The translations under genes were made by a program, and so were the position numbers. Below, piece after piece: positions 406 to 23,099 of a DNA stretch of 64,000 nt; positions within the stretch are counted from its first letter, which is position 1; every line of letters starts with the position of its first letter. Below the pieces are notes generated by a model that was given only the letters and a program-made list of their open reading frames with translations, was not told where the DNA came from and searched no databases. The DNA is taken from assembly GCA_021736785.1 (NCBI GenBank), contig JAIPFF010000006.1:1-64000 (forward strand). Reading direction: 5' to 3'. Source of the DNA: Thiohalocapsa sp. GTDB taxonomy: Bacteria; Pseudomonadota; Gammaproteobacteria; Chromatiales; Chromatiaceae.

Positions 406-3400
406 TTATTGGCATGCGCCGAGGGTGGCAAGATCGAACGGAGCAGACACCGGCGTGCGGTCCGCACCCACGGCAACCACGGCACCAGCGGGCAGCATAT
501 CGACGCCGAAGCAGGCGGTCTCGCCGGCAGGCACGGTCAGCGGGTCGATACCGTCTTGGCCCCAGTTCTTGACGAAAAAGCTATAGGTCCAACCGTCGGC
601 GATGGGACTCAGCGTATCCGCCACCTCCAGATTAAAGCCGGTCGCGCCCAAAACGGCTGTCGACGTAATGGTGCCGCTATACTCGACCAACTGAGAGGAA
701 CCGCCTGATGCGGCCCTCACATACCACTGCTGATCGCCCGCGGCGGCGCAATCGCGCCAAATGAACAAGCCCGCGTCGTTGCCCGCCGAGTAACTCGGCT
801 CACCGCAGGCCAAGCTGTTGGAAGCGCCGTCGTTGTCGACGATCGTGACAGTCGCGGACGTTGCGCCGGCGGCAGCACCCGCGATATTGCTGAGTGTGAC
901 CGTGAACGACTCGTCGGACTCCTCGTCGTTGTCATCTGTAATCGGTACGACGATCGTTTCGGTGGTCGCGCTGTTCGTGAAGGTTACGGTCCCGCTGGTC
1001 GCGCTGTAGTCACTGCCCGCCGTCGCGCTGCCGTCAGCGGTCGCGAAGTCCGCCGATGCGTCGACGCCGGTGGGGGACGAGAGCACGACCTCGACCACTG
1101 CGGTTCCTGCACCCTCGTCGACGGTAACGTCGCTGATGCCCATACTTTGCTGGGATGCGGGCGCACAAGACCCAAGGGTCTCGAGATCGAACGGTGTCGT
1201 GACCGGCTCGCGGCCGGCACCGACTTCGATCACCGCACCGGCGGGCAGAGCGTCGACCGTGACGCAGGCCGTTTCACCCTCGGGCACCGTCAGGAAGGCG
1301 CCGTCGAGGCCGGTGTTGATGATCAGCATCTCGTAGTCGATCAGGCCGGTGCCGCTGCCGGCGAGCGTGTCGTTGGCCTCCAGCCGGTCCGGTGTCACCG
1401 TCAGCGTCGCCGACGAGGTGATGCTGCCGCCGAATGCGATTGTCGACGCACTGCCGCCCGCCAGCGCGCGGATGGTCCAATTCTGATCGCCCGGCACCGT
1501 GCAGTCGCGCCACATGAAGAAGCCCCGATCCGTGCTCTGATTCAGCGCCGGCTCGCCGCAGGACTGCGTGTTGCCGCCGTCGTCGTCGAGGATCGTCACG
1601 GTCGCGGACAGGTCGCCCGGCGCGGCCCCGACGAGGTTGCTCAACGTCACCGTGAAGTCCTCGGCGCCTTCGACATCGGCGTCGTTCGTGATCGAGATGA
1701 CGATCGTCTCCGATACCGAGCCGCCCGTGAACGTGACCGTCCCGCTCGATGCGGTGTAGTCGGAGCCGGCGAGTGCCGTGCCATCCGCGGTCGCGAAGCT
1801 CGCCGTCACGTCGCCGCTCGCCGACTCGCTCAGCGTCACCTGCACCGATGCGGTGCCCGCATTCTCGTCGACGGTGAGGTCGGCAATGCTCATGGTCGGC
1901 ATCGAGACCGGCGCGCAGGACTGCAGCGTATTCAGATCGAACGGTGCCGTCACCGGCGTGCGACTCGAGCCCACCTCGATGACCGCACCTGACGGCAGCA
2001 GGTCCGCGCCGAAGCAGGCGGTCTCGCCAGCGGGCACGACAAGGCTATCGATGCCGTCTTGACCTGCGTTCTTGACGAATAGCGAATAGGTCACGTTGCC
2101 GCCGACTACGCTCACCACATCCGCACCTTCGATGCTGAAGCCGGTCGCGGACAGGACGGCATCCGAAGTGATCATGCCGCCGTACTCTTGCACGACAGGA
2201 TTACCGCCGGCGGTCACACGGGCGTGCCAGACGGCATCCGGACCGACGGCATCGCAATCACGCCAGACAAACAGCCCGATCTCGCTTGCCGCGTTATAGG
2301 ACGGCTCGCCGCAGATCACGCCTTCGTCGTCCTCGATCGTTACCGTGGCAGTCATATCGCCAGCCAAGGCGCCGACCGGATTGGTCAGCGTCACCGTAAA
2401 GTCTTCGAGACCTTCGACATCAGAGTCGTTCGTGATCGGGATCGAGATCGTTTCCGACGTCGAGCCGCCCGTGAACGTGACCGTCCCGCTCGATGCGGTG
2501 TAGTCGAAGCCGGCGAGTGCCGTGCCATCCGCGGTCGCGAAGCTCGCCGTCACGTCGCCGCTCGCCGACTCGCTCAGCGTCACCTGCACCGACGCGGTGC
2601 CCGCATTCTCGTCGACGGTGAGGTCGCCGATATTCATCGTCGGCACCGCCGCCGGCGCACAAGATTCGAGCGTCGCCAGATCGAAGGGCACGGTCACCGG
2701 GGTACGCGCCACGCCCACTTCGACCACCGCCCCCGCTGGCAAGGTCTCCGCCCCGAAGCAAGCGCTCTCGCCGGCGGGCACCGTCAGATTCACGCCGTCC
2801 TGGCCGGTGCCTTTGACGAACAGCACGTAGCTCACGTCTCCGGCAACGACGTTGACCTCGTCGGCGCCTTCGATGCTGAAACCGGTCGCGCTCAGCGCGG
2901 CATCGGAGCTAATGACGCCGCCGTACTCGACAACCGTTCCGCTGCCGCCTGCAGTCACGCGGGCGGACCAGGTTTGATCGGGACCGGCCGCGTCGCAGTC
3001 GCGCCAGACGAAAAGCCCGGCCTCGGTGCCCGCGTCATAGGACGGCTCGCCGCAGGCAATCCCCTCGTCGTCGATGATGCTGACCTCGCCGCTGGCATCC
3101 CCCGGCAGGGCGCCGGTGATCGACGTGATCTCGACGAAGAAGGTTTCGCTGCCCTCGAGAATACTGTCGTCGAGTAGTGTCACGGTCGCCGTTTTGCTGA
3201 TTTCGCCCGCGGCAAAAGTGACCGTGCCGCTCGCGGCCGCGTAGTCTGCCCCCGCGAGCGCAGTTGCGTCGGCGGTTGCGAAGGAAACGTCGACGCTTTC
3301 CCCGGCTGCCGGCGGCGCCGACAGTGTGATTTCCACATCTACGGTGCCGTCGTTCTCGAACGCCTGCGCGTCGGCCACGTCGACACTGAGATTTCCCGTG

Positions 3401-5865
3401 CTGCTGCAGCCCTGCATGGTCTGCAGATCCAGCGGCGCATCCGCGGCCCAGCGCCCCGCGCCGATGAGGATCGGCTGATCGACCGGCGTATCGAGCTCGA
3501 GGCATTGCGAGCCGGTCGGCACCTCGAAATCGATTCCGTCCTCGTTCACGCCGATTACGTTCAAGTTGAAGGTGGCTTCGTTCTGGCTAACCACCTCGAA
3601 GGAGTCGAAAGCGTCGACATCGAATCCGGCGATGCTCGTAAACGGTACCGTGGAGCGCAGACGGCCCTGGTAGCTGACCGTCGTCTCGCTTTGGCCGCCT
3701 TTGGTGCGCAAATGCCAGGCATTGGTACTGCAGTCCTTCCAGACCAGAATCGCCGGACCGAAGTCTTGGGAATACCAGGGCTCCTGCAGGGGGTTGGGGT
3801 TATTCGGGTCCGTCTCCCCGCACTCGTCGCCCGGCTGCGGCGGCACGTCGCCGGCCGCCACGCCCAGCGTAACGGGTGTCAGCACGCCACTACCGATGCC
3901 GGTCGTCCCCTCGGTGACCCGGTAGATGCCGCCTTGTCCGATGTTGATGTTGTAGAACTCGTTCACGTTGACAACGCCGCCGACGCCGGGCCACTCCACG
4001 CGCAGCGTGCTGATGACGGAGTTGCTGCCCAGGCCGACGTGCAGGCGCTTGGCGTTCTGCGACCACCGGTGATAACCGCCATCCTGCTCGCGCAGCTGCG
4101 TTTTCGCGTCCGGCGTCGTTACGTAGACCTTCGCCCCCAACCCGTCACGGTTGGAGACCGTGCCCTCCAGGTCGATCTGAATCCAGCTGTTGCCGTTACC
4201 CAGATTGCGATGCAGCTCGGCCGGCCCGCCGACGCGAGACGGCTGCAGATTCAGGCCATTGACCGTAAACAGATCCAGAAACCCGTCGGCGTCGAAGTCG
4301 GCGACGACCACGGAGTCGCCGATACCGACACCGTCGGCCACGGCCGTACCCAGCGGGCCCTCGGCGCCACCCGCACCGGGCACCAGCGTGAAGTTGCCGG
4401 TGCCGTCGTTCTCGTAGAGACGGTTCGCAATGTTCTGCGCGCCGCCCCGGCAGACCATGTAGATGTCCACATCCATATCATTGTCGAAGTCGCCGACGCC
4501 GGCACTGGCGCAGTGAATGGGATCGCCCAGACCGCGCGGCCACGGCTCGTTGGTGAACGTGCCGCCGTTGTTCATGTAGAGATGCGGGGGCAGCAGGCCA
4601 TCGCCATTGGTGGTCCCGGCGAAGGTGAGATTGGCGAAGTCCGGACCGGTCAGACGGTCGATCATGAAGTAGGCGCGTACGTCATCCGGTCCGTAGTAGA
4701 CCCGCACCTGCCACTGGCTCAGCGTCGTGTCGTAGCCGATATGAATGGAGCGCCCGAAGACCGGGTCGAACGTAGATATGCCGTGCACAACAGGATCGGT
4801 GCTGCTCAGTGTGAACGGCCCTTCTTCGGCAGGACGCACGGCACCGGACCCAATGAAGGTTCGCCAGCGGCCGAACTGCTCACTCGAGATATCGACGTAG
4901 ATTTCTTCGCCGCCTTCAAAATCGAATGCGGAGTCAAAACCCGTCCCGGAGCCATCGCCGCCCTCGACGCGCACCTCGATGCGATCGGCGCTATGGAGCA
5001 CCGCCTCCTGCAGCCGCAAGCGGCCCCGGACGATCAGCAGATCGATCTCGCCGTTGTTGTCGAAGTCCGCCGACGCCGAGTCCGCGACCAGCGACGAGCC
5101 GGGCAGACTTGCAGTGATATCGACGAACGGCCCGCCCGTTTCCGCAAAGTCGCTGATGTCCCAGAGCGTGTCGACGCTTGCCTCGCGCATGCACAGCAGA
5201 TCGGCCTTGCCGTCCACATTGAAGTCGTTGAAGTGGACGTGGTTGTTGCGACTACCGCAGGCGAAGCCGGTGCCGACGTTATTCTTGTTGAATGCAACCA
5301 GGGGAGTCTGTTCGTAGACGTTCGCCGGGTTGAAGGTCGTCATGAGCAGGTCGGAATACCCGTCACCCGAGAAGTCGAGCCAGAATGCCGCGCGACCTGC
5401 TGCGGTGAAGGCGCCGGCCCCGTAGGCAATGGCTTCGTCGGTAAAGTAGCCTCCCTGATTGACGAAGAACTGCGCGTCGACGTTGATGCCGGTCGACACC
5501 ATCAGGTCTTGGTCACCGTCGTTGTCGTAGTCAGCCCAGGTACCGGCATGCTGGTCGCCCGGGAATTCCACCCACGTGCTGGACCGGTCAACCCGCAAGG
5601 TGACGTCGGTGAACCCGCCGTCGCCATCGTTACGGAAGATGTACGGGCGTTGCCGGTGGGCGTTGTAAAAAATATCGATCCAACCGTCCGCATTCATGTC
5701 GGCCGCCGTCGCCCCCCAAGACTCGGTGACCGGAAACGGACCCGCCGTGGCGCTGACATTCTCGAATTGAATGGCGCCGACGGCTGTCGTGCTCATCGCG
5801 AGACAAATCGCGAATGCAGCGGCAGGCCGAGCCCACAACGGTAAGAGGCGGACAGGAAGTTCCAT
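406..5865 (-). CDS. Giant secreted FG-GAP / ASPIC-UnbV / Calx-beta repeat protein
   Basis: An 1819-residue exported protein. The ATG chosen precedes a clear signal peptide (MELPVRLLPLWARPAAAFAI, cleaved after AVGA); further upstream the frame is arginine-rich and lacks secretory character. Residues ~30-555 carry many FG-GAP/VCBS calcium-binding loops (DYDNDGDQD, DFSGDGYSD, DFNVDGKAD, DFDNNGEID, DFDADGFLD), expected to fold as a beta-propeller. Residues ~555-650 look like an ASPIC/UnbV domain (RLHVGLGS, LRVEWPGV). From ~680 to the end, five copies of a ~135-residue four-cysteine module (CGEPSY..F.WRDC..ACFG..SCAP) alternate with four Calx-beta domains (FATADGTALAG.DY..SGTVTF, DD/ND). The protein ends on a module, with no anchor, PEP-CTERM or autotransporter domain. 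A role as calcium-stabilised adhesin or matrix protein is inference. Neighbouring sulfotransferases and glycan genes suggest it works with a surface polysaccharide. Confidence 0.88.
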   Translation of the reverse strand: MELPVRLLPLWARPAAAFAICLAMSTTAVGAIQFENVSATAGPFPVTESWGATAADMNADGWIDIFYNAHRQRPYIFRNDGDGGFTDVTLRVDRSSTWVEFPGDQHAGTWADYDNDGDQDLMVSTGINVDAQFFVNQGGYFTDEAIAYGAGAFTAAGRAAFWLDFSGDGYSDLLMTTFNPANVYEQTPLVAFNKNNVGTGFACGSRNNHVHFNDFNVDGKADLLCMREASVDTLWDISDFAETGGPFVDITASLPGSSLVADSASADFDNNGEIDLLIVRGRLRLQEAVLHSADRIEVRVEGGDGSGTGFDSAFDFEGGEEIYVDISSEQFGRWRTFIGSGAVRPAEEGPFTLSSTDPVVHGISTFDPVFGRSIHIGYDTTLSQWQVRVYYGPDDVRAYFMIDRLTGPDFANLTFAGTTNGDGLLPPHLYMNNGGTFTNEPWPRGLGDPIHCASAGVGDFDNDMDVDIYMVCRGGAQNIANRLYENDGTGNFTLVPGAGGAEGPLGTAVADGVGIGDSVVVADFDADGFLDLFTVNGLNLQPSRVGGPAELHRNLGNGNSWIQIDLEGTVSNRDGLGAKVYVTTPDAKTQLREQDGGYHRWSQNAKRLHVGLGSNSVISTLRVEWPGVGGVVNVNEFYNINIGQGGIYRVTEGTTGIGSGVLTPVTLGVAAGDVPPQPGDECGETDPNNPNPLQEPWYSQDFGPAILVWKDCSTNAWHLRTKGGQSETTVSYQGRLRSTVPFTSIAGFDVDAFDSFEVVSQNEATFNLNVIGVNEDGIDFEVPTGSQCLELDTPVDQPILIGAGRWAADAPLDLQTMQGCSSTGNLSVDVADAQAFENDGTVDVEITLSAPPAAGESVDVSFATADATALAGADYAAASGTVTFAAGEISKTATVTLLDDSILEGSETFFVEITSITGALPGDASGEVSIIDDEGIACGEPSYDAGTEAGLFVWRDCDAAGPDQTWSARVTAGGSGTVVEYGGVISSDAALSATGFSIEGADEVNVVAGDVSYVLFVKGTGQDGVNLTVPAGESACFGAETLPAGAVVEVGVARTPVTVPFDLATLESCAPAAVPTMNIGDLTVDENAGTASVQVTLSESASGDVTASFATADGTALAGFDYTASSGTVTFTGGSTSETISIPITNDSDVEGLEDFTVTLTNPVGALAGDMTATVTIEDDEGVICGEPSYNAASEIGLFVWRDCDAVGPDAVWHARVTAGGNPVVQEYGGMITSDAVLSATGFSIEGADVVSVVGGNVTYSLFVKNAGQDGIDSLVVPAGETACFGADLLPSGAVIEVGSSRTPVTAPFDLNTLQSCAPVSMPTMSIADLTVDENAGTASVQVTLSESASGDVTASFATADGTALAGSDYTASSGTVTFTGGSVSETIVISITNDADVEGAEDFTVTLSNLVGAAPGDLSATVTILDDDGGNTQSCGEPALNQSTDRGFFMWRDCTVPGDQNWTIRALAGGSASTIAFGGSITSSATLTVTPDRLEANDTLAGSGTGLIDYEMLIINTGLDGAFLTVPEGETACVTVDALPAGAVIEVGAGREPVTTPFDLETLGSCAPASQQSMGISDVTVDEGAGTAVVEVVLSSPTGVDASADFATADGSATAGSDYSATSGTVTFTNSATTETIVVPITDDNDEESDESFTVTLSNIAGAAAGATSATVTIVDNDGASNSLACGEPSYSAGNDAGLFIWRDCAAAGDQQWYVRAASGGSSQLVEYSGTITSTAVLGATGFNLEVADTLSPIADGWTYSFFVKNWGQDGIDPLTVPAGETACFGVDMLPAGAVVAVGADRTPVSAPFDLATLGACQ
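1721..1882 (-). repeat. Near-identical internal Calx-beta DNA repeat, copy 1
   Basis: This 162-bp stretch of the giant gene matches 2465-2626 at all but about two positions, while the flanking modules are far more diverged. It encodes the core of one Calx-beta domain. The sharp boundary of identity suggests recent duplication or gene conversion. Confidence 0.9.
2465..2626 (-). repeat. Near-identical internal Calx-beta DNA repeat, copy 2
   Basis: Partner of the repeat at 1721-1882, 744 bp away in the same frame, which equals one module-plus-Calx-beta period of about 248 codons. Recombination between the copies would delete or add exactly one period without breaking the reading frame. Confidence 0.9.
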
Positions 5866-6069
5866 GTTTAATGACCCGAAAATGACCCTGAAAACTTTGA
5901 CGACCGATCGACGACGCTGGGACCCACGCCAACAAGCCGCCGGGACGGATAACTGATGCGGGTAGCATGCACAAATCGCACCAACGAACGGACCGGCTAG
6001 GGCTCCGAGGCGCAACAGGCACTTGAACAAGACGCAGATGGGGGATCGCCCTAGCCTCCGACCACTCTC

Positions 6070-6089
6070 CTGTAACGTACACATTACAG
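6070..6089. promoter_or_regulatory. 20-bp dyad, candidate operator
   Basis: The arms CTGTAA and TTACAG are perfect inverted repeats separated by 8 bp with a GTAC centre. The dyad lies about 205 bp upstream of the giant gene. A TTGACA hexamer begins at the next base on the plus strand, but no good -10 box follows at the right distance. The arm spacing fits neither CRP, FNR nor LexA, so no regulator is named. Confidence 0.45.
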
Positions 6090-6166
6090 TTGACAATTCG
6101 GCTCGGCAGATGGGGAGATCGGCGGGGGCAATCGGTTGGGGCGCACCGGCTTAACCGAATTCCAAT

Positions 6167-6443: not shown

Positions 6444-7325
6444 TCAGTACCCGTAGCGCCGGCGGAATCTGCTGGTCCAGCGATCGACGACGGCGAGCTT
6501 GTCTTCGGGCAACGTCGTGCGCCACCGCTCGTCGAGTTTCAGATCCATCGCACTTTCCTTGAAGCGTACTCCGCTGCCGGCGATCGTGTGTGTCTTGCCG
6601 AGCGTTGCGGTGTTGCCGTCCAGGAATCCGAGCTCCGCGTCCGATGCGCCGACGAAATCAAGGATCTTGCGCAGAGTCTGCTCGGGGTGTGCGACCAAGT
6701 CCTCGTAGCGCACCCGCTCGTAGGGCGAACGGACCCACTTTGCCGCCCACTCCGTGACTAAGTTGACGAGCATCCAGCGAACGCTGTTCCACCAAGTGGA
6801 TCGGCGTGAAAATTTCTCCGAGCCCTCGTGCTTCAGGCGATACATCGATCCTTCGGAGGCGCGCACATCGCGCACCAGATGCAGGGTATAGACATCGATG
6901 TCGGGAAACAGATTGAGCACGGCACCGTAGAATGCGGACTTGGAGCTGTCCGCGACCACGCGCGCGCCACCGACATCGTGCACCGCACGATGAAGATCGT
7001 GTAGTTGGGCAAAGTAGCCGGTCAGAAAGCGCTTCGCCCCCGGGATAGCAAGTAACGGCAGGTAGCGCGTCTTGAGGCGGTGCCAACGCTTGCGGTCGAG
7101 CCGCTCGATTCCGCCCACGCCCTGCTCGACGACTTGCGTCCAAAAGGCGCAGGATTTCACCGGCGCGCTGCAACCGCATTTTTCGTCATGCGCATATTGC
7201 ACGTCGATGTTGATCAACTCGCCGACGTCGACGACCCCTTCGACCTGCCCCAGCAGCTTGCCCAGCAGCGTGCTGCCGGTCTTGCCGGTTCCGGCGATGT
7301 ATAAAACCTTGATTTTTTGGTCCAT
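6444..7325 (-). CDS. Sulfotransferase family protein
   Basis: A 293-residue PAPS-dependent sulfotransferase-type protein. The 5'-phosphosulfate loop is GTGKTGSTLLGKLL at residues ~12-25. The 3'-phosphate-binding motif is LVRDVRASEGSMYR near residue 150, preceded by DSSKS. A cysteine cluster (KCGCSAPVKSC) follows the first strand. GGGAG lies about 11 nt before the ATG. There is no signal peptide, so the enzyme should act in the cytoplasm, probably on a lipid-linked glycan or small molecule before export. It lies between the giant secreted protein and the beta-helix gene on the same strand. The acceptor cannot be read from sequence. Confidence 0.85.
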   Translation of the reverse strand: MDQKIKVLYIAGTGKTGSTLLGKLLGQVEGVVDVGELINIDVQYAHDEKCGCSAPVKSCAFWTQVVEQGVGGIERLDRKRWHRLKTRYLPLLAIPGAKRFLTGYFAQLHDLHRAVHDVGGARVVADSSKSAFYGAVLNLFPDIDVYTLHLVRDVRASEGSMYRLKHEGSEKFSRRSTWWNSVRWMLVNLVTEWAAKWVRSPYERVRYEDLVAHPEQTLRKILDFVGASDAELGFLDGNTATLGKTHTIAGSGVRFKESAMDLKLDERWRTTLPEDKLAVVDRWTSRFRRRYGY

Positions 7326-7434: not shown

Positions 7435-9612
7435 TCACCGAAACAGCGTCACCGGGTGCTTGCCGTTGACATCGATGCGCTTGTCGCCGTCCAGCTCGAG
7501 AATGGTGCGGTAGCGATCGCTCGGCCTAAGCTGCATTGCATTGGCAACAACAATGTCGGCGCTGGATACGATCTCGATGAGGGCCTCGCCGACCGGTGTC
7601 GCAATGCCGGAGTAACCGAAAATCGCGACATCTTGCGAATCCGCAATACGAATCACCGAATGATGCTCGTTCTCGAGCGTCTCGGCCTTCAGGTAATACA
7701 GCTCCACACCCTTCGCATTGACGACTTCGCATTGCGGATTGGAGCGAGAGCGTTCCACATTGAGCCCATAGAAGGCGAGCCGTGCATGATTATCGCGAAT
7801 GCGCACATGGCGATAATCCGTGCCGTCGGAGACGTCGCTGAGCTTGTTCCACGGTGCCGCCATAGCATAGACGCGCCCCGCCCCGGTGACGCGATAGGTC
7901 TCGAGACGCCGGGACGGCGCCCGGCTTGCCGACGGCATCGACGTGAGGTCCATCATGATGTCGCGCACCACGGAACCTGCACCGGCGCGCCAGGCAAGCG
8001 CGGTCTGCACCTGCTCCGGGGCAATGTCGATGCGCAAAAAGGAGATGGTAGCGTCCGACGCGGCGTCGCTCGTGCTCGACACCACCGCCGTTCCCGGCTC
8101 CGGCCGCCATTTTCCGCTCGCCTGAATGATCGACAGATGCTTGGCAACACCGATCAAGTGCTTTCCCGCGGGAATCTCGATGGTGTCGCTCACCAGATAC
8201 CTGCCCTTCGGCAAGAAGACTTTCTTGGCGCTGGCCAACGCCTTCTCGAGCGCCGCGGTGTCGTCGCCGGCGTCGTCGGGCTTGGCACCGAAGTCCGTCA
8301 CCGAGACCACGTCCGCGTCGTCCATGGACGGGAAACCGCTCCCCCAAACATGGCGATCGATCAGCGCATCGCCATCGGGCTCGCTGCCGGCGGCGACAAC
8401 CGCATGCGTCGCGACCGGCGCGCCGTCGACGATGATTTTGCTGTCCGGTCCGGCATGGGCATACTCGCCGATATGGGTCCAATCGCCCACGGCGGCCTCC
8501 AGCCGCTCCGAGCCGCTGCGAATCGGCGCGCTCGCGCCTTTGATCCAGACATCTTTTAGGTAAAGGCTACGACCGGCCCGGTTGTCGATCGCGATCGGGC
8601 CGTCGACTCGAATCACGCCGTCGACCAGCGTCAGCGCGCCGGCTACCGATTTTCTGCCGCCGCGCAGCATGACGATCGGCCCACCGCCCGGCTGATCGAT
8701 GACAAAGCCGGCGATCGTCATATTCGACTGACCGTTCCAGAACAGCGCGGACTTCTTCTGACCGGAAAGGCGAATGCCGGCGAGCACCGGAAAACGCGTA
8801 CGATGCTCGGCCCAAATGCCGTAGTCCCCGCCATGTACGCCGATACGGTAGGCGCCACCGCCTTGTCCGGGCAGATTCATGATGCCCGCATAGGCACCTT
8901 GCGCGTAAATATCCACGTCTTCGAGGGTCGATCCCTGGGATCCGGCATGGCGAATGCCCACCGCACCGCGATTGCCGCTTGCACGCAGGTCGAGGTCGAT
9001 GCCCTTGAAGACCTGATTCATCGAAATATTCGACTGCTCGTCATCCGGGTCGGTGCTGCCGAGCTCCCTGGACACGCCCGAGGCCTTGTCGTTGCGCGGC
9101 TGGGCCCAGATCCAGACCAGCGGCTTCGGCTTATCGGGGTTGTCGAAGCCGACGGCGTTGTCGGCGAGGACGAGACGCGGGCGCGCATCGCCGGCGGTGG
9201 AGCCCACCAGGGCGTTGGCCCTATTGCGGTCGTGCCTGAATCTGTCCTTGCCCCGATCCAATTCAACAGGCTGCATGGCACGAATGGTATCGGAGACCAA
9301 ATAGCGGCCCGGCGGAAAAAAGGCCACGTAACCCTTGGATAACGCCGCATCGACGGCCTTCTGGATGGCCGCCGTATCGTCACCGTCGTCATCGGGCACC
9401 GCGCCGAAGAGGGTCACCGGCAGGCGCCCCTTGATCACATCGGGATGATCCGGCGGAATCTCGGGATCTGCCGCGAGCGCGACCGCATGCATCTGCAGCA
9501 GCATGGCCGCCGTCAGCATCATGCGGGCAAGCCCTGCTGCCCGGCGCGGGCGCAACGCCGACCACCGCCGTGCAGCGGACAAGTACGCTACGAACCCGGT
9601 GTCAGCGCTCAT
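7435..9612 (-). CDS. Secreted double right-handed beta-helix protein (pectate lyase 3-like)
   Basis: A 725-residue exported protein with two tandem beta-helix units. Each unit opens with the same motif set: FGAVPDDDGDDTAAIQKAV then PPGRYLVSDTI near residue 65, and FGAKPDDAGDDTAALEKAL then PKGRYLVSDTI near residue 437. This is the signature of Pectate_lyase_3 / GH28-like phage and bacterial polysaccharide-active proteins. The hydrophobic signal ([18 protein letters not shown]) comes after an arginine-rich stretch. The ATG chosen overlaps the stop of the preceding sulfotransferase by 11 nt (ATGAGCGCTGA), implying translational coupling. An internal start at the MM pair (residue ~31) is also possible. 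It may cleave, trim or bind the glycan made by this locus. Catalytic residues cannot be assigned by eye. Confidence 0.82.
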   Translation of the reverse strand: MSADTGFVAYLSAARRWSALRPRRAAGLARMMLTAAMLLQMHAVALAADPEIPPDHPDVIKGRLPVTLFGAVPDDDGDDTAAIQKAVDAALSKGYVAFFPPGRYLVSDTIRAMQPVELDRGKDRFRHDRNRANALVGSTAGDARPRLVLADNAVGFDNPDKPKPLVWIWAQPRNDKASGVSRELGSTDPDDEQSNISMNQVFKGIDLDLRASGNRGAVGIRHAGSQGSTLEDVDIYAQGAYAGIMNLPGQGGGAYRIGVHGGDYGIWAEHRTRFPVLAGIRLSGQKKSALFWNGQSNMTIAGFVIDQPGGGPIVMLRGGRKSVAGALTLVDGVIRVDGPIAIDNRAGRSLYLKDVWIKGASAPIRSGSERLEAAVGDWTHIGEYAHAGPDSKIIVDGAPVATHAVVAAGSEPDGDALIDRHVWGSGFPSMDDADVVSVTDFGAKPDDAGDDTAALEKALASAKKVFLPKGRYLVSDTIEIPAGKHLIGVAKHLSIIQASGKWRPEPGTAVVSSTSDAASDATISFLRIDIAPEQVQTALAWRAGAGSVVRDIMMDLTSMPSASRAPSRRLETYRVTGAGRVYAMAAPWNKLSDVSDGTDYRHVRIRDNHARLAFYGLNVERSRSNPQCEVVNAKGVELYYLKAETLENEHHSVIRIADSQDVAIFGYSGIATPVGEALIEIVSSADIVVANAMQLRPSDRYRTILELDGDKRIDVNGKHPVTLFR

Positions 9613-10426
9613 ACCACACCGAGAAGTCCATGCCGGACGCCGATTCCAACTGCCGAATATCGTCGCGGTAGTACTTGAGCAGCAGTTCCTGGCGCAGACC
9701 TCGATCCAACGTGGCATTGGTCTGTTTCTTCGGCAGCATGCCGAGCAGTTTCTTTCCGGCCTGCTTCACAGGGCGGGTCATATCGCGCGGCAGCGCCCGC
9801 AGTACGCGCCGCGTCGCGGCCGCCGCTCCGTGAAAGGCCGTGACATCTCTCTTGCTGTTGCTGCGCTTGGAGATGACCGTCGGCTGGAAGCTCGGATCGA
9901 CACCGAGGAAGTCGTAGCATTTGCGGATGCCTTGACCGGGATCGCCCTCGATATCCTGCTCGTAGAGCAGCACCAGCATTTGATCCTTCGGAAAAGTGTC
10001 CATGTAGCGCTGCAAATGCCGGCCGTAGTAACTCGCGCGAGGGCGGTCTTGCTCGAAGAACGCGCGGAACTCGGTATCGACGTCGATCAGCCCGCGGCTC
10101 AGCTGATGCCAATAGAAGGAGAAGGCCTGCTCCACCGGATGCCGCAGGCTGGCGATGAGCTTGACGTCGGGCAGATCGGCGCGAATACGCGCCGTCGCGT
10201 CGACGCTACCGAGATAGCTGGGAGAGGCCTCGCCGACCACCGGCTCGCCCGCGGCCCCTTCGAACTGCTGCGCGTACCAGGAACGGCCCTTATCGAAATT
10301 TTGCCCGCAGTAATAGCGCAACTCCTTCAGCTGCGGTACGAAGACGTCCGGATGCTCGCGCAGAGCGTCCGCAATCCAGGTCGTTGCCGCTTTCGGGGCG
10401 CCGATGATCAGAAAATTCGGTTCCAA
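9602..10426 (-). CDS. Sulfotransferase domain protein (Sulfotransfer_1-like)
   Basis: A 274-residue cytoplasmic-type sulfotransferase. The PAPS 5'-phosphosulfate loop, GAPKAATTWIADAL, is at residues 9-22 and resembles heparan/chondroitin-type enzymes. The 3'-phosphate motif ASLRHPVEQAFSFYWHQL lies near residue 95. Size and motif order fit the family. Its stop codon is inside the start region of the beta-helix gene, so sulfation and the secreted beta-helix protein are made from one coupled message. It is clearly different from the other three sulfotransferases in the window, which suggests a different acceptor or position. Confidence 0.9.
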   Translation of the reverse strand: MEPNFLIIGAPKAATTWIADALREHPDVFVPQLKELRYYCGQNFDKGRSWYAQQFEGAAGEPVVGEASPSYLGSVDATARIRADLPDVKLIASLRHPVEQAFSFYWHQLSRGLIDVDTEFRAFFEQDRPRASYYGRHLQRYMDTFPKDQMLVLLYEQDIEGDPGQGIRKCYDFLGVDPSFQPTVISKRSNSKRDVTAFHGAAAATRRVLRALPRDMTRPVKQAGKKLLGMLPKKQTNATLDRGLRQELLLKYYRDDIRQLESASGMDFSVWYER

Positions 10427-11429: not shown

Positions 11430-11446
11430 CAGGCTCGGTTCTTGCT
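11430..11446 (+). promoter_or_regulatory. Candidate sigma-54 promoter for the glycosyltransferase operon
   Basis: The site reads CAGGCTCGGTTCTTGCT, matching YTGGCACGNNNNTTGCW at all but two positions, with GG and GC correctly spaced. The predicted transcript starts near 11457, about 63 nt before the chosen start codon. This excludes the longer open frame that begins with a TTG inside the promoter. Confidence 0.65.
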
Positions 11447-11519
11447 GTTCGCGAAGGAGCTATTGCAAAGCGTCGACGACGACGGTCCGCGGTGCGGGCC
11501 GAGTCGGCGGAATCAAATC

Positions 11520-12650
11520 ATGAGAGCAGAAGCCCACATGGAACCATACAGAGACTCTTCTCGGCGCTCGGGCGCACCGGTCGCCGATCTCCGAGCGCCC
11601 GCCCCCTCGAAGGGCGACGTGCTGGACGTCAGCATCATCATCAAAACGCTCAACGAAGAAGCGAATATCGCCCGCGCGGTGGAATCGGCGCTGGACGCAC
11701 TGCACGCCGTGCGTGGCGAAGTGATCGTCGCAGACAGCGTGTCATCCGACCGAACAGTCGAAATTGCCTCGCAATATCCCATTACGGTTGTGCAACTTGC
11801 ACATGCGCATGAACGCTGCTGCGGCGCCGGGCCGCAGCTCGGCTTTCAGCATGCGCGCGGAGAATTTCTGTATATCCTCGACGGCGACATGGAAATGGAC
11901 ACCGATTTCCTCGCCCGCGCGGTCGCGTACATGCGTGAGCATGCCGATGTCGCCGGCGTCGCCGGCATCGTGGAAGAGCTCGGCGGCGGCAATTACGAGT
12001 TCGAGGCGCGCAAGTCTCAGGGCGCAACCTGGAGCAGGCCGGGCGAGCAGCGCTGGCTGGATATGGGCGGGCTCTACCGACGGGCAGCGGTGGAAGCGGT
12101 CGGTTATTTCTCCAACCGCAACCTGCACGCGTGCGAGGAACAAGACCTGGGGATGAGGCTCGGACAGCACGGCGCGCGCCTGGTTCGGCTGCCGATCCGC
12201 TCGGTAAAGCATTATGGCCGCTGCGAGGACTCCTGGACACTGATGCGAAAGCGTCTGAAAAGCGGCTATTCCGATGGCCCGGGCGAATTGGTGCGTGCGG
12301 CAATCGGGCAGCCGATGCTGCTGCCGGCATTGCGCAGCCATCGAGAATTAGTGGCGATGGCGGGCCTTTGGGCAGCATTCCTGGTATCCCTGTTGCTGCT
12401 GCCGCTGAGCGCATTGCCGGCGGCAGCGGCAGCGGCTCTGCTCGCCGCACTGTTCGCCGTCATGCTGATCAAGAAGCGCAGTCTCGCGCAGGCGGCCACG
12501 GGCATGATCAACTGGCAGTTCAGGACCGCTGGCTTCGTGCGCGGCCTGCTCCGGCCGCAAATGAAGCCGACGATTGCACTGGACAGCAAGGTCGTGGCTC
12601 GGCCGCGCCCCGTTCCGGCGCCGGCGCCGGCGCAAGCGCGTGAAGCCTGA
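11520..12650 (+). CDS. Family 2 glycosyltransferase with C-terminal membrane segments
   Basis: A 376-residue GT-A fold glycosyltransferase. The N-terminal part has the nucleotide-sugar strand DVSIIIKTLNEEANIARAV, the conserved Asp in VIVADSVSSDRTVEIA, and the metal-binding DxD-type LDGDMEMDTDF. A hydrophobic pair (LWAAFLVSLLLLPLSALP, AAALLAALFAVMLI) lies at residues ~275-320, then an Ala/Pro-rich tail. It should add a sugar to a lipid-linked repeat unit at the inner membrane face. The ATG chosen has GGCGG 9 nt upstream and lies downstream of the candidate sigma-54 promoter. The sulfotransferase gene follows after 4 bp, so the two form an operon and may build and sulfate the same unit. Confidence 0.88.
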   Translation: MRAEAHMEPYRDSSRRSGAPVADLRAPAPSKGDVLDVSIIIKTLNEEANIARAVESALDALHAVRGEVIVADSVSSDRTVEIASQYPITVVQLAHAHERCCGAGPQLGFQHARGEFLYILDGDMEMDTDFLARAVAYMREHADVAGVAGIVEELGGGNYEFEARKSQGATWSRPGEQRWLDMGGLYRRAAVEAVGYFSNRNLHACEEQDLGMRLGQHGARLVRLPIRSVKHYGRCEDSWTLMRKRLKSGYSDGPGELVRAAIGQPMLLPALRSHRELVAMAGLWAAFLVSLLLLPLSALPAAAAAALLAALFAVMLIKKRSLAQAATGMINWQFRTAGFVRGLLRPQMKPTIALDSKVVARPRPVPAPAPAQAREA

Positions 12651-12654
12651 AGCG

Positions 12655-13737
12655 ATGAACGATATGCAAGTCAGCAACAGCGCCGCAACAGCCATCCCGA
12701 CGAATACCGCTTCGGCACATTCGATGCCCCTTATCTTCGTCACGGGCGCGTCGCGCTCCGGGACCACCATGCTCGCCCGCATGCTGGGCGAGCACAGCAG
12801 CGTGCGCAGCTTCAACGAGCTGCACTACTTCGGAGAGTTGTGGGATCCGTTCGCGAAGGACGTATCCGAGGCGCGAAGCCGGTTGATCGAGCTTGCGACG
12901 ACCCTGCTGGTGCGCGAAACACGCGGCCTGTGGGGCGGCCGACCGACGTCCGATGATATTGCTTGGGCCGAGTCCGTGGTCGAGCAATTGCCGCTGCAGG
13001 GCGCGACACCGTCTGCACTGTTTGCGGCAGTCGCCCGGCGCTTGGCCGCCGACGCCGGCAAGACGTGGGCATGCGAGCAAACGCCGCGGAACATCTTCTA
13101 TGCCGAGCGTCTGCTGGAACTCTACGAGAACGCCTACATCGTTCACATCGTCCGCGATCCGCGCGCGGTGCTTGCTTCGCAGAAGAACCGTTGGAAGCTG
13201 CGCAAGCTCGGCGCGGACCACCTACCGGTGTCGGAGATGCTGCGAAACCGGGTCAACTACCACCCCTATACGATGAGCAGGCTCTGGGCGAAAGCCAACG
13301 AAGAGGCTTTGCGGCTGCGCGATCGGCCGCGGGTACGGGTGGTGCGCTTCGAAGACCTGGCGGCCGAGCCCGAGGCGGAATCGCGCAAGCTCTGCGACTT
13401 CCTGGGTCTGCCTTACGAGGAAGCCGTGCTCGACGTGCCCAAATGGGGATCGTCGAACGTGGCCCACAGCAGCGCCGAAAAAGGCGTCTCCAAGGATGTG
13501 GTCGGCAAATGGCGCGATACGATATCCGACGGGGAAGCCCTGATCTGCGAGAAAGCCACCGCGGGCGTGATGCAACGCCTCGGCTACGAGCCCGAGTTCG
13601 CCGGTCGCACCGGTGCGCTCCGGATGCTGCCGAGTCTGGCGATGTACCCGCTGCACATGGCCGGGGTCGTCGCGCTGAACCCCGGGCGCGCTTGGATCCA
13701 ATTGCGCGCGCTGGCGCGTACCAAATCCCCCCTTTAG
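12655..13737 (+). CDS. Sulfotransferase family protein (paralogue of 17846-18952)
   Basis: A 360-residue sulfotransferase. The 5'-phosphosulfate loop is FVTGASRSGTTMLARML and the 3'-phosphate motif is IVRDPRAVLASQKNRWKL. Conserved blocks ACEQTPRNIFYAERLLELYE, VRFEDLAAEP and KWRDTIS are all present. The start chosen is the ATG 4 bp after the glycosyltransferase stop; Met-4 of the product is an alternative. No signal peptide is seen. It is about half identical by eye to the minus-strand gene at 17.8-19.0 kb, so the two arose by duplication within the locus and may modify different positions of the same glycan. Confidence 0.9.
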   Translation: MNDMQVSNSAATAIPTNTASAHSMPLIFVTGASRSGTTMLARMLGEHSSVRSFNELHYFGELWDPFAKDVSEARSRLIELATTLLVRETRGLWGGRPTSDDIAWAESVVEQLPLQGATPSALFAAVARRLAADAGKTWACEQTPRNIFYAERLLELYENAYIVHIVRDPRAVLASQKNRWKLRKLGADHLPVSEMLRNRVNYHPYTMSRLWAKANEEALRLRDRPRVRVVRFEDLAAEPEAESRKLCDFLGLPYEEAVLDVPKWGSSNVAHSSAEKGVSKDVVGKWRDTISDGEALICEKATAGVMQRLGYEPEFAGRTGALRMLPSLAMYPLHMAGVVALNPGRAWIQLRALARTKSPL

Positions 13738-14159: not shown

Positions 14160-15659
14160 TCAGTAAGCGTTCTTGTGAATGAAGCCGCGGAAGAACGTCA
14201 TCAAGATGATGCGAAAATCCAGCCACAGCGACCAATTGCGGATGTAGTCCAGATCGAAATCGACGCGCCGCCCCATTTTGTCGAGGGACTCGGTTTCGCC
14301 GCGCCAGCCATTCACTTGCGCCCAGCCCGTAATACCCGGTTTCACTTTGTGCCGGAGCATGTATCCGCCGATTAGGGAACGATACTGCTCGTTATGGGCC
14401 ACCGCATGCGGTCGAGGCCCGACAATCGACATCGAGCCCTGAAACACATTGATGAACTGCGGCAGCTCGTCGAGCGAAGTGCGGCGCAGAAAGCCGCCGA
14501 AGCGTGTTATGCGGGTATCGCCTTTGCGCGCCTGCTGCACCTTGTCGCTGTCCTCGCAGACGGTCATGCTGCGGAACTTCCACACCATGATCTCGCGGCC
14601 ATCAAGTCCGTAGCGGCGCTGCTTGAAGAACACCGGCCCCGGACTCGACAGCTTGACGCCGAGCGCGATCGCTGCCATCGGCAGCGCCAACAGGACCAGC
14701 GCGATACTGCTGACCACCACGTCCTCGATACGCTTGATCCATTGGTCGGGGCCGAGAAACGGGCTCTCGTAAACGCTCACTGCCCTGATGCCGCCCAAAT
14801 CCACACAAGTGCGCTGCAGCACGTCGACCCGCCACAGGTCCGGCACCACCTGCCGCGATGCGGACTCGCCCTGAGGGTCGCGTGCACGGCGATCCTGCAC
14901 GAGGTAGACGGAGGCGGTGCTGTCGCTGAGCTTGCGCATCAGCGAGTCGGCTTGCCGCTCGGAGTCTCCCGGCGGGAGGGCGACATAAATGACGTCCAGT
15001 TCGCCCCGGCGCGCCTTTTCGACTAGATTTTCAAGAGACCCCTTCAGCCGCAGTCGGCCGACCGAGCCGTGCTCGGCACCGGGCTCGACATCGTCGAAAA
15101 GCCCTTCGATACGAAAGCCCATCCAAGGATTCTCGGAGACACTGCGACCCACATGGCGCGCTAACTCGCCGCTGCCGGCGATCGCCATCCGCCGCGAGTT
15201 GAGCCCCTGGGCGCGCGCGACCCGCAAGGCGCGGCGGAAGGCGGAGCGCCATGAGCCGAGTAAGATCGGAGTCGCCAGCAACCAGAGCACGATGGTGTCG
15301 GGCGGATAGCCGGTCGGATCCTGTTGAATGTAGATCGCAACCAGCGACAATCCCGCGACGGCCAGCCAAATTTCAAAGGTAGACCAAAGCTCCCGCGAGA
15401 TCGGCTCCGTGCGCCAGGAACGGTAGAGCGCCTTAGCCTCGGCGAATAGATAGAACAAAATCGCGCCGGCGGCGGCGGCCCCCGTCAGAGCGACGGACCA
15501 CGGTGTGCCGGTCAGCATCGCCGCGGTCGCCAGAGCTCCGACGATGACGACCGCGTCCGCCAAGCGGTGTACCAGCGTCAGATTGCTGCGGTGTTGGCGC
15601 AATCGACCGCCGCGCGGCTCGCGCTCGACGATCGCATCCATCACGTATTCAGCCCACAT
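14160..15659 (-). CDS. wcaJ: Undecaprenyl-phosphate sugar-1-phosphate transferase (WcaJ/GumD type)
   Basis: A 499-residue polyprenyl glycosylphosphotransferase that starts a polysaccharide repeat unit by moving a sugar-1-phosphate (usually glucose) from UDP-sugar to undecaprenyl phosphate at the inner membrane. The N-terminal half has about four membrane segments and a CoA-binding-like domain (RMAIAGSGELARHVGRSV). One more segment (VVVSSIALVLLALPMAAIAL) precedes the catalytic domain: GPVFFKQRRYGLDGR, VWKFRSM, RRTSLDELPQFINVFQG, MSIVGPRPHA, VKPGITGWAQVNGWRGET. The C-terminus has the usual FHKNAY-like end (FIHKNAY). AAGGAT stands 7 nt before the ATG. A strong terminator follows, and a near-consensus sigma-54 promoter lies about 390 nt upstream. 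The gene marks this locus as making an exopolysaccharide or capsule. The symbol is by family; sugar specificity is not known. Confidence 0.92.
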   Translation of the reverse strand: MWAEYVMDAIVEREPRGGRLRQHRSNLTLVHRLADAVVIVGALATAAMLTGTPWSVALTGAAAAGAILFYLFAEAKALYRSWRTEPISRELWSTFEIWLAVAGLSLVAIYIQQDPTGYPPDTIVLWLLATPILLGSWRSAFRRALRVARAQGLNSRRMAIAGSGELARHVGRSVSENPWMGFRIEGLFDDVEPGAEHGSVGRLRLKGSLENLVEKARRGELDVIYVALPPGDSERQADSLMRKLSDSTASVYLVQDRRARDPQGESASRQVVPDLWRVDVLQRTCVDLGGIRAVSVYESPFLGPDQWIKRIEDVVVSSIALVLLALPMAAIALGVKLSSPGPVFFKQRRYGLDGREIMVWKFRSMTVCEDSDKVQQARKGDTRITRFGGFLRRTSLDELPQFINVFQGSMSIVGPRPHAVAHNEQYRSLIGGYMLRHKVKPGITGWAQVNGWRGETESLDKMGRRVDFDLDYIRNWSLWLDFRIILMTFFRGFIHKNAY

Positions 15660-16475
15660 GTCGTTATCCTTCAATGCTGTGTTAATCCGCGGGCGGATTG
15701 CTCGATGCCGCCGGGCGGGCCTATCGCGAGTCGACCTATCGGTTGCTCCGTCATGGCAACCCATCGAAGCGCGAGCGTCTGGGAGCGGCTCGTGTGCCGG
15801 TCAGCACCCTTCAGCGCGCCTTTCGGTTACGCGGGACGGCGCGTCATGCGGCGTCCGGGTTGTGCAAAAAGCACGTCTTGGCAAAAATCAATGCGAAACG
15901 CATTCCGTCGATCAAAAACGGCGCCGGGCAAAGACCGGCTTTGGCACCGTTCACGATCGTCGCCGGCCGTTACAGCCGCTGCTCGGAACCGCCATCGGCC
16001 ATTCGGTCGCCGGTGTTGCCCATCGCATCCGAGCCGGCCACATCCTTAGGGCTATAAGGAAAGCAAAATACGCGCCAACAAATGGGGCAATTGCCGGCCT
16101 GGCACCGTACCTGGCCAAGTCTGCCCCGAACTCTCGCCGGTCGCGCCACCCGCGCCGCATTGAGCCGCACTCTGCCGTGATCGGCCGGCCCGTGATCGCG
16201 AAGCACAGTTGCCGCGCCCCCCGAAGGGACATGACACACCCGGAGCGCGTCTCGACGCCCTCCCGCAGCCGTGCGACCCTCACAGAATAAACACGCGTTT
16301 GAATAGCGCAATAGGTCAGTTGCCGTGATGCGAGCATGCAGGGACCGCGGTCAGTGCGTGCTCGCGCGAACGGCGTTGCGGAGAGCCCGAGGCATCCGGC
16401 GGCACGTTTAGGTTTGGTCGGGCATGAGGAAAGACGCGCCGCGATTGCCGCGACGCCTCGGCAGCGCAGTCAGCA
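15660..16475. other. Long intergenic region upstream of wcaJ
   Basis: It holds a candidate sigma-54 promoter (listed separately) and a leader of about 390 nt between it and the gene. Open frames here overlap in several phases, are Arg/Ser-rich and lack ribosome sites, so I call none. The half farther from wcaJ, towards 16475, shows nothing else I can name. Confidence 0.6.
16062..16078 (-). promoter_or_regulatory. Near-consensus sigma-54 promoter upstream of wcaJ
   Basis: On the minus strand the site reads TTGGCGCGTATTTTGCT. Against YTGGCACGNNNNTTGCW this has one mismatch (A to G), with GG and GC at the exact spacing. Predicted transcription starts near 16051, heading into wcaJ. A sigma-54 activator gene lies 5 kb away in the same locus. 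Confidence 0.75.
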
Positions 16476-17845: not shown

Positions 17846-18952
17846 TCAGCGCTTGCGTGCGATTCCGGCGCCGAGCTCCGAGAGAGCTCGCACCGGATCC
17901 ATGGCGATGACCCCCGCGACGTGCATCGGGTAGGAGATGAGGCTCGGAAGTGATGCAGGCTTGCCGGCGCGGCCCATGTATTCCAGCGGATAACCGAAAC
18001 GCTGCATCATCCGATGCGTCACCTGCTCGCAGATCAATGCCTCGCTGCGCGACAAATGCCCGCGCCACCGATTGGCAGTGGTGTACGCGGCGTCTTCGCG
18101 CTCGCTCGCGTACTCGGCGTCGGTGGACGCCCATCGCGGCATCTGGATCATGCCGGGCTCGAAATTCACGCCCAGTGTCGCGCATAGCCTGCGCGCGGTT
18201 GCATCGGGATTGGCGATCAAGTCTTCGAAGCGCACCGCCAGGAATCGCGGATGGCCCATCAGATGCATCGCGCTCTCGGTTGCCTTCGCCCAGAGCTTGC
18301 TCATCGTGAGCGGATGGTAATGAACGCGCTGTCGCAAAACCTCACGGAAAGTCAACCCGTCCGAGCCGATGCGATTGAACCTGCCGCGGCTCTTCTGTGA
18401 AGCGAGCACGGCCCGCGGGTCGCGGACGACATGAAAAATATGGGCGTTCTCGTAGAGCTCGAGCAGGCGTTCGGCATGGAAAATGTTGCGAGGCGTCTGA
18501 TCGCAGGCAAAGGTCTTTCCGCCGTCTTCGCCGAGACGCCGCATTACTGCCGCGTAGAGCCCCGCCCCGTTGCAGTCCGCCTCATCGAGATAATGCGCGA
18601 CCTGCCGCCCCCAAGCGCGCTCGACCGCGGTGGGCGTCTGCCCCCAAAGGCCATGGTTTTGCCGTGCCAGAATGAGCGCGGCCAGCTCTGCCAGCTCGTG
18701 CTCCTCAAGCGGCATCTCCGCCGTGCGCGGATCACAAAGCGCGCCGAAGTAATGCAGGGGATTGAATGACATGACCGCGCTGTGTGCGCCAAGCATACGG
18801 GCCAGCGTCGCGGTGCCCGAGCGCATCGCACCGGTAACGAATACCAGCGGCGTTGCCCGTGCGGATTCCGCGACCGAATCCTGCGTTCGCTGATTCCCGT
18901 GATCCAGGCGATATATCGCCGCGGAACCGCGAGCGCTATCGGTGATCTTCAT
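17846..18952 (-). CDS. Sulfotransferase family protein (paralogue of 12655-13737)
   Basis: A 368-residue sulfotransferase. Its PAPS motifs are FVTGAMRSGTATLARML at residues ~37-53 and VVRDPRAVLASQKSRGRF near 195. It shares with the plus-strand paralogue the blocks NPLHYFGALCDP, ACDQTPRNIFHAERLLELYE, YHPLTMSKLWAKA, VRFEDLIANP and the C-terminal SYPMHVAGVIA. The loop has A in place of the usual second T (SGTATL), a mild change in a phosphate-binding residue that may lower activity. No signal peptide is seen. It is the fourth sulfotransferase of the island and is transcribed separately from its closest relative. Confidence 0.9.
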   Translation of the reverse strand: MKITDSARGSAAIYRLDHGNQRTQDSVAESARATPLVFVTGAMRSGTATLARMLGAHSAVMSFNPLHYFGALCDPRTAEMPLEEHELAELAALILARQNHGLWGQTPTAVERAWGRQVAHYLDEADCNGAGLYAAVMRRLGEDGGKTFACDQTPRNIFHAERLLELYENAHIFHVVRDPRAVLASQKSRGRFNRIGSDGLTFREVLRQRVHYHPLTMSKLWAKATESAMHLMGHPRFLAVRFEDLIANPDATARRLCATLGVNFEPGMIQMPRWASTDAEYASEREDAAYTTANRWRGHLSRSEALICEQVTHRMMQRFGYPLEYMGRAGKPASLPSLISYPMHVAGVIAMDPVRALSELGAGIARKR

Positions 18953-22171: not shown

Positions 22172-23099
22172 TATCCAAAGATCTCCGAAAAATGGCGAAA
22201 CCTGCACTCCGGTCGCACCTTGGGCGGCGCCTTAGGCGACGAAATTAGGCACACCGCACCCGATGCGCGACAGCTGTTGCGAGGATGTCAGCCGGCGCCC
22301 GACGCACCCGTTTCGACCGTCGACTGTGCGGCAATGCCCCCCAAACCAAAGGGCGGTCGCTATCGGCTATCGGGGCCCGAATCCGTGAGCATCTAGCCCG
22401 TCACGGTGCGGCAAGCGCTGGGCGAAAGACCGATACGAAGCTGCCGCAAGGCGCAGATACATTTGCCGAGAACTGCTTGCGGCCTCTACAACCGCCGCAT
22501 AGCAAAATGATTTGTGATAAAAAGGAGACAGGGCACGTCCTTACCAAAAGTCTCGCCCATGGCCTTAGCGACGTCAAGGCAGGACGGCGCAAACAGTCGG
22601 AACGAAAGCCGGGATGGCATGCACGCCACCGAATTATCAGCCTGTTATGTGATAGTGATGTTTGGTCACGCACGTTTTGCTGCAGGATCAGTGAAAGCGG
22701 CTCCGCCGGTTTCATCGCGCATCCAATAAGTAAAATCACTTATCGCCGTACAGGATTTCCCCATTCATCAACCGCGGCGGAATGGGCAATTCACCGTGCC
22801 CTCCTGCAAGCCTTCAAGTACTTGTTGCCATTAATGATGGACTTGAAGCCCCCGAGAATCCGCGATGCGCATCCCATTTCCGCTGTGCGCTGTACCCCGT
22901 GGGGCGAAGCGCCGAAAGCTTCGTCGCTTCGCGTGCCGCGCGACGCTCGGAGCGGAAATGGAATACACGCAGATTCGGCTCGGGCCGGTGGTTGCGAAGC
23001 ACCAAGTCGGTGCCGGAATGACCAAAATGTCGAAGGGCGGGTTCTCGCCGGAGCCGAGCGTCTTTTCGTGCGATATCTCGCCGCGGCACGCAACGCCAT
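22172..23099. other. Non-coding region with hairpins
   Basis: About 930 bp between the activator and a methyltransferase remnant. Apart from the long hairpin at 22874-22961 it has a small dyad, ATAAGT-N6-ACTTAT, near 22727-22745. A+T content is locally higher than elsewhere. No open frame here has both a ribosome site and a recognisable product; it looks like decayed sequence. Confidence 0.5.
22874..22961. repeat. 88-nt imperfect hairpin
   Basis: Nested perfect arms: CCATTTCCGCT / AGCGGAAATGG (11 bp, outer), GCGAAGCG / CGCTTCGC (8 bp, middle), CGAA / TTCG around AGC (inner). The sequence between outer and middle arms pairs only partly. It could be a REP/MITE-like element or a structured RNA. 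No terminal target duplication is visible. Confidence 0.65.

Follow-up and report, generated by a model that had tools for sequence, protein, structure and literature searches.

We found that a module of ~135 residues, which carries four cysteines in each of its five copies in one protein of Thiohalocapsa sp., is a mobile accessory domain and, according to its structure model, a beta-sandwich without assignable family. Judged by gene content, the module family is often tied to sulfated-exopolysaccharide loci. We propose with moderate confidence that the module keeps secreted proteins within the sulfated slime that the cell itself produces, which would involve their export, their retention and the binding of polysaccharide. 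The protein was found in a stretch of 64,000 nucleotides from contig JAIPFF010000006.1 (assembly GCA_021736785.1), here referred to as the window.

The protein is encoded by one continuous open frame on the reverse strand, with the codons counted from TTG. The ATG at residue 78 is its likely start and is followed by a stretch which by eye resembles a signal peptide (Table 1). The protein does not start with the array at 406-3840; the half preceding it was overlooked in the preliminary description. This half contains FG-GAP repeats (PF13517, E 2.3e-22, 79.8 bits) followed by an UnbV_ASPIC domain (PF07593, E 2.3e-13, 50.2 bits), both above the Pfam cut-offs, and in the PDB it matched cartilage acidic protein 1 (9etn, E 1.2e-9). 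A PEP-CTERM tag was not matched in the window protein by Pfam or NCBIfam. The array itself was confirmed as five modules with four cysteines each, which alternate with the four Calx-beta domains. This is based on the open frame, the positions of the cysteines (residues 759/789/865/897, 1015/1034/1113/1146, 1262/1281/1361/1394, 1513/1532/1611/1644 and 1764/1783/1862/1895), an alignment of the five copies with 27 invariant columns and the match of the four Calx-beta stretches to PF03160 (E 7.7e-81, 268.3 bits versus a cut-off of 27). Calx-beta 2 matched PDB entry 3us9 (E 6.8e-15). The acidic positions of Calx-beta 2, the one domain compared, mostly align with those of NCX domains and may serve as calcium ligands.

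Table 1. Features of the window discussed in the text, with positions counted from the first nucleotide of the window.
Feature	Position	Strand	Remarks
Whole-protein open frame	409..6096	-	1896 codons; likely start ATG 5865
Signal-peptide-like stretch, residues 78-108	5773..5865	-	by eye
FG-GAP/VCBS repeats and UnbV_ASPIC	3841..5769	-	ASPIC best stretch 3988-4143; Pfam, PDB
Module M1	3400..3834	-	11-residue insert just after first cysteine
Calx-beta 1	3064..3399	-	Pfam
Module M2	2653..3063	-	structure predicted
Calx-beta 2	2320..2652	-	Pfam; structure predicted paired with M2
Module M3	1909..2319	-	71% identical to M2
Calx-beta 3	1570..1908	-	Pfam
Module M4	1159..1569	-	alignment of copies
Calx-beta 4	817..1158	-	Pfam
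Module M5	409..816	-	last cysteine, then one residue, then protein end
Sulfotransferase	6444..7325	-	PF13469, E 2.7e-13; 64% identity with a sulfotransferase of module contig G426:C134 (another genus)
Pectate-lyase/epimerase-like protein	7435..9717	-	PF12708
Sulfotransferase	9602..10426	-	PF13469
Glycosyltransferase family 2	11442..12650	+	GT2
Sulfotransferase	12574..13737	+	PF13469, E 7.4e-33; G425, G429 and G449 have 58-62% identical relatives on module contigs
WcaJ-type undecaprenyl-phosphate glucose phosphotransferase	14160..15764	-	TIGR03023 above cut-off
Sulfotransferase	17846..18952	-	PF13469
VpsR-domain sigma-54 activator	20792..22207	-	best NCBIfam match PEP_resp_reg, below cut-off
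Adenylyl-sulfate kinase	37247..37924	-	apsK above cut-off; more loosely linked to the locus, on the same contig

The two units M2-Calx-beta 2 and M3-Calx-beta 3 shared 79% DNA identity over 754 columns, which indicates that duplication of a unit of one module and one Calx-beta domain contributed to the growth of the array. Together with the homologues in other genomes this identity rules out chance as the origin of the module pattern. A regular rod, as initially deduced from the alternation, is not supported. In the model of M2 paired with Calx-beta 2 each domain was confident (pLDDT 94.6), but the pTM of only 0.66 leaves their mutual orientation unfixed, and the model thus shows two well-formed beads joined at no defined angle. 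The alternation recurs in relatives, for example in locus L131, with five modules and four Calx-beta domains, and in a sulfatase of locus L090. However, it is not general, since other relatives carry modules in direct tandem, single modules or no Calx-beta. At the first positions of the window (1-211, reverse strand) the start of another gene for an FG-GAP-type protein, recognised by eye, is cut by the contig end.

Known domain families were searched with the window copies and with alignment A5, which comprises 51 module copies, five of them from the window. Pfam matched 0/5 window copies at E<=10. At E<=1 the 51 members of A5 gave matches to eight families, one member each, with a best E of 0.015, and none of these was credible. 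NCBIfam matches of the whole window protein that overlapped the modules were far below the cut-offs, and PDB sequence searches gave no match for the module (best profile hit E 0.052). We therefore rejected a known domain family for the module on the basis of these three collections, in line with the initial statement that no known domain has this pattern. No description of the module was recognised in the literature either, as judged mostly on titles and abstract openings, which does not prove its absence. The module thus adds a domain family that is absent from the searched copies of Pfam and NCBIfam.

The AlphaFold2 model of the module, obtained with 51 sequences, consisted of strands throughout (mean pLDDT 96.1, pTM 0.89). 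A Foldseek search of the PDB with this model gave no match at E<=0.001. The top rows were CBM2 domains (E 3.5e-3), a CLIPPER adhesin domain and cohesins. With VIA-align the best row was 9ifr with Z 7.3, closely followed by Als adhesins and cohesins; according to the tool, models without a match commonly reach a Z of this level. Likewise, a library of viral structures gave weak and tied fold rows for the module model. As the Foldseek and VIA-align rows are weak and tied, we do not claim membership of the module in the cohesins or the CBMs.

The cysteines were compared in 153 unique modules, of which 15 were dropped as cut off and 138 scored. All four cysteines were present in 107/138. C1 alone was missing in three modules, two of them M1-type copies with C1 displaced by the insert, and C3 and C4 were each missing in one. 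Two cysteines were left as C1+C2 in five modules (three being copies in one protein of L051 and one, L147_4764, probably a frame break), as C3+C4 in three and as C2+C3 in one poor short ORF, while the pairs C1+C3, C1+C4 and C2+C4 were found in none of the two-cysteine modules among the 138. Only C3 was left in one short match inside an FG-GAP part, and 16 modules had no cysteine, some of them again short matches inside FG-GAP parts. This pattern of co-loss favours disulfides C1-C2 and C3-C4 and supports the two disulfides per module that had been supposed from the window copies.

The scored PEP-CTERM and Planctomycetota relatives had modules without any of the four cysteines, so the fold seemingly does not depend on them. 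The single-module PEP-CTERM proteins without the four cysteines (L156 and L158-L161) are 218-254 residues long and may reflect an earlier state of the domain. The module profile also gave short, weak matches inside the FG-GAP part of three frames (L127 6169-10224, L155 5450-8188 and L140 1842-5033), which are due either to chance or to an ancient relative of the module within these proteins. Conserved residues of the profile besides the cysteines are the polar E63, D66, D88 (in D88-G89) and R32, and also W21 and W29. Almost all modules (124/129) were net negative with a mean charge of -8.0.

In the fetched loci, 151 modules were found in 85 distinct ORFs with one to five copies each, at the N- or C-terminal side of nine types of host protein. 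FG-GAP/ASPIC proteins accounted for 40 of these ORFs, GHL15-like proteins for 12, PEP-CTERM proteins for five, sulfatases for four and GH16 proteins for two; a pectate-lyase-like protein, a DUF4832 protein, an NHL protein and a subtilase were found once each. The remaining 18/85 ORFs showed modules and Calx-beta only. Many of these were cut by contig or locus ends, and the one of L093 belongs to a longer frame that includes an ASPIC domain. Host types were assigned by similarity to one example per type, and Pfam run on representatives agreed, with the limits that GHL15 was below the cut-off in L052 and not reported in L152 and that the truncated L092 gave no GH16 match. Glycan-active or similar domains were present in 19/85 ORFs, namely the GHL15-like, sulfatase, GH16 and pectate-lyase-like hosts; most of these were assigned from their resemblance to a single annotated example.

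Further domains and irregular arrays were observed in some relatives. One module relative of the window's own genome carries a C-terminal ricin-type lectin. Within L049 one FG-GAP/module protein (3760-7206, reverse strand) ends in a ricin-type beta-trefoil lectin (PF00652), and another (6711-9869, reverse strand) ends in a VHL beta domain (PF01847, 31.1 bits, cut-off 21), which is odd for a secreted-looking bacterial protein. Pieces of module arrays are held by adjacent overlapping ORFs in different frames in L147 and L149, which suggests frameshifts or assembly errors.

The position of the module within its hosts bears on the idea that it serves as a signal for secretion or surface sorting. 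The module ends the window protein and follows the FG-GAP/ASPIC part in 40/40 ORFs of this type, as would be expected for such a signal. However, it is N-terminal in 10/12 GHL15-like, 3/4 sulfatase and 2/2 GH16 hosts as well as in the DUF4832 host and the pectate-lyase-like one, and this speaks against a sorting signal at the terminus. Moreover, it occurs in tandem copies, and it precedes a separate PEP-CTERM tag in five single-module proteins (L156, L158, L160 and L161 by model, L159 by similarity). We consider a sorting signal highly improbable.

The module might also be a mere structural spacer or stalk, that is a disulfide-stapled bead which lengthens secreted proteins, with calcium-binding Calx-beta beads in between. 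The in-cis duplication of a unit at 79% DNA identity, the variable copy number of one to five and the Calx-beta partners would fit such a role. It is nevertheless improbable, because 42/85 ORFs show a single module (some of these ORFs are truncated), and because the conservation of the polar residues E63, D66, D88 and R32 and the linkage to one type of locus would be left unexplained.

The distribution of the module was patchy, as for genes subject to lateral transfer or frequent loss. The surveys of order, class and phylum scored the 10-19 best candidates of each genome, which capped the copy numbers; in the 19 module-bearing genomes every candidate was scored. On this basis the module was found in 17/210 genomes and 10/61 genera of the order (profile A5), in 3/274 genomes of the class (profile A3) and in 1/398 genomes of the phylum (profile A5); the window's own genome is counted in the former two and is the only one in the latter. 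In a collection of genome contigs 2/52 pattern matches were confirmed, and the named matches were one MAG each of Pseudomonadales and Planctomycetota. No module match was obtained in nine further species of the window's genus. A viral or plasmid origin was considered and rejected, since no relative was confirmed in viral contigs (profile A4) or plasmids (query M2).

Seven contigs of the window's own genome (G000) carry modules, namely C8, C25, C32, C37, C41, C82 and C95. In 7/7 there are modules at most 3.8 kb from a contig end, which shows that the assembly is broken there, probably by the module repeats themselves. Copy number and clustering in this genome are consequently likely to be underestimated.

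The genes next to the module protein, which were overlooked in the preliminary description, characterize the window locus by their content as a predicted sulfated-exopolysaccharide locus (Table 1). Relatives of the core genes were found on module contigs of G425, G429 and G449, with identities of 58-62% for a sulfotransferase, 61-65% for WcaJ and 68-70% for the VpsR-domain activator; the latter value holds for four module-bearing genomes in total. Relatives of the pectate-lyase-like protein with 37-47% identity are located on module contigs of G426, G425 and G429. In G426 the relatives of WcaJ and of the activator sit on a different contig from the modules. G065, which belongs to another family, has weaker relatives of the core on module contigs (sulfotransferase 49%, WcaJ 41% over 162 residues, activator 43%), and the stretches taken from G296, G334, G402 and the own-genome contig C8 contained none of WcaJ or the activator. 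Two small proteins of the window (10534-11127 and 19388-20044, both reverse strand) had no Pfam or NCBIfam match; relatives of these with 30-39% identity are found near the same core in G425 and G429.

The linkage of modules to sulfotransferase genes was noticed after viewing the loci and was not predicted beforehand. In the 19 module-bearing genomes 44/85 module frames, a set distinct from the 85 fetched host ORFs, were located within 10 kb of a PF13469 match, versus 1.55 expected given the share of the genomes that was covered. Counted by contig, which is safer since neighbouring genes are not independent, it was 17/49 versus 0.88 expected. A first count in ten of the genomes, selected because their modules were numerous or multi-domain, and with the best candidates scored, had given 34/62 ORFs (1.2 expected) and 14/35 contigs. 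Sulfotransferases are common in the order (176/210 genomes), so that their mere co-occurrence with modules says little; they were present in 9/9 of the module-free species of the window's genus as well. No sulfotransferase was found within 10 kb of 41/85 module frames in the 19 genomes, including 10/11 frames of the window's own genome (1/11 near), and 0/5 PEP-CTERM relatives were near one.

From the 19 genomes, ten were used to compare proteins of the same type with and without a module. Sulfatases with a module were near a sulfotransferase in 4/4 cases, those without in 1/54 (Fisher 1.2e-5); the four come from three loci, the 58 matches include three below the cut-off and some split genes, and the full module list did not change the result. 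For ASPIC proteins the respective numbers were 17/34 with a module and 1/10 without (p 0.03). One frame of contig C4 of G065 was extended by hand past the fetched stretch because it is listed as one frame of 1713 aa.

These data bear on the reading that the module binds foreign sulfated polysaccharide of algal or detrital origin, in the manner of a CBM, and that the enzymes digest external glycans. The sulfatase, GH16 and pectate-lyase-like hosts and CBM2 as the top Foldseek hit (E 3.5e-3) agree with it. However, the modules are linked to genes of biosynthesis (WcaJ, sulfotransferases, VpsR-domain activator), 53/54 module-free sulfatase matches in the ten genomes were away from sulfotransferases, and 40/85 fetched hosts are FG-GAP/ASPIC proteins, which are not known enzymes. 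We regard digestion of foreign glycans as quite unlikely.

We rather favour retention in the slime of the producing cell. The module, as a small acidic beta-sandwich with the putative disulfides C1-C2 and C3-C4, would serve as an accessory retention domain for proteins that are secreted into the neighbourhood of the cell's own sulfated exopolysaccharide. The window protein would accordingly be a secreted CRTAC1-like FG-GAP/ASPIC protein in which Calx-beta domains are calcium-binding spacers. With five modules between such spacers it could contact the matrix at several sites, and a repeated binding site in the array is plausible. On hydrolases, sulfatases and the lyase-like enzyme, several of them from similar loci, modules may hold the enzymes in the slime which they remodel. 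Several findings count against retention: the net negative charge of the modules, the 41/85 module frames away from sulfotransferases (including the five PEP-CTERM relatives), the stretches in which WcaJ and the activator were not found, the nine species of the genus with sulfotransferases and no module match, the 40/85 fetched hosts that are functionally uncharacterised FG-GAP/ASPIC proteins, and the likeness of the module fold to cohesins and adhesin domains, which is as great as that to CBMs.

The ligand would be a polysaccharide, perhaps bridged by calcium, rather than another protein of the matrix. Since 124/129 modules are net negative, they are unlikely to bind a sulfated polyanion by simple ionic contacts, and calcium bridging or contacts to neutral sugars would be needed. 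Given the conserved E63, D66, D88-G89 and R32 and the acidic positions of Calx-beta 2, calcium is a reasonable guess, no more. The main alternative is docking between proteins as in cohesins, whereby the module binds a common partner in the matrix or at the surface and a scaffold-type complex is formed. It is consistent with the presence of type I and type II cohesins among the best structural neighbours (VIA-align Z up to 6.6), with the acidic surface and with the occurrence of the module in several unrelated enzymes. On the other hand, the TM-scores of Foldseek were <0.5 and the Z values at the level usual for unmatched models. Moreover, enzymes and non-enzymes alike carry modules, with no clear division into scaffold and clients. 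Docking is therefore unlikely in our view.

If retention in the own slime is correct, it would show how bacteria station modifying enzymes there. We further suggest, as a doubtful possibility, that the module is a self-recognition address for the sulfated exopolysaccharide of the neighbouring genes, which acts via a calcium-bridged acidic surface and without a protein scaffold. Unrelated enzymes and propeller proteins would then be stationed in the own matrix, and the module would be the founding family of slime-retention domains. The module provides a sequence handle on secreted-looking proteins of putative sulfated-exopolysaccharide loci in uncultured bacteria, and it might offer a tag for binding sulfated polysaccharides.

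Gene clusters comparable to the window locus have been described. The synechan paper reports a sulfotransferase-bearing exopolysaccharide cluster (xss), and its authors stated in 2021 that such genes were unknown to them in other bacterial clusters (PMC8205485). Later papers reportedly describe clusters for sulfated capsules in Vibrio KMM 8419 and Cobetia KMM 1449, and a putative cluster of this kind was reported for Pontiella (PMC7356697). The synechan, Vibrio and Cobetia loci reportedly combine sulfotransferases and glycosyltransferases as the window does. Unlike in the window, a shared accessory domain did not come up in the passages and abstract openings consulted for them. An association of PEP-CTERM sorting with exopolysaccharide has been reported (PMC1569441); the tag is present on five single-module relatives, whereas the window protein is without it.

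Regarding known folds, the module model has a beta-sandwich arranged similarly to that of type I and type II cohesins (up to Z 6.6 over 104 residues in VIA-align), but it had no sequence-profile match to them, and they are tied with adhesin and clathrin-adaptor folds. The CLIPPER domain of the fibrillar adhesin 9ifr gave the highest VIA-align row (Z 7.3, 106 residues, rmsd 3.5), with an identity of 7% and a Z usual for unmatched models. The likeness to CBM2 (6qfs, 1exg), the best Foldseek hit (E 3.5e-3), consists in the small beta-sandwich, with TM-scores of 0.36-0.43 by query and 0.45-0.51 by target, and no CBM2 model was among the Pfam matches of the five copies and the 51 members. CBM2 domains are appended to glycan-active enzymes and bind polysaccharide by aromatic residues on their surface; the aromatic residues conserved in the module profile are W21 and W29. 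The four spacers of the window protein are ordinary members of Calx-beta (PF03160), the family of CBD1 and CBD2 of the Na/Ca exchanger, to which the module itself was linked by no profile or PDB search. Finally, CRTAC1-like FG-GAP/UnbV-ASPIC proteins match the N-terminal half of the window protein, and the module array is an added C-terminal part.
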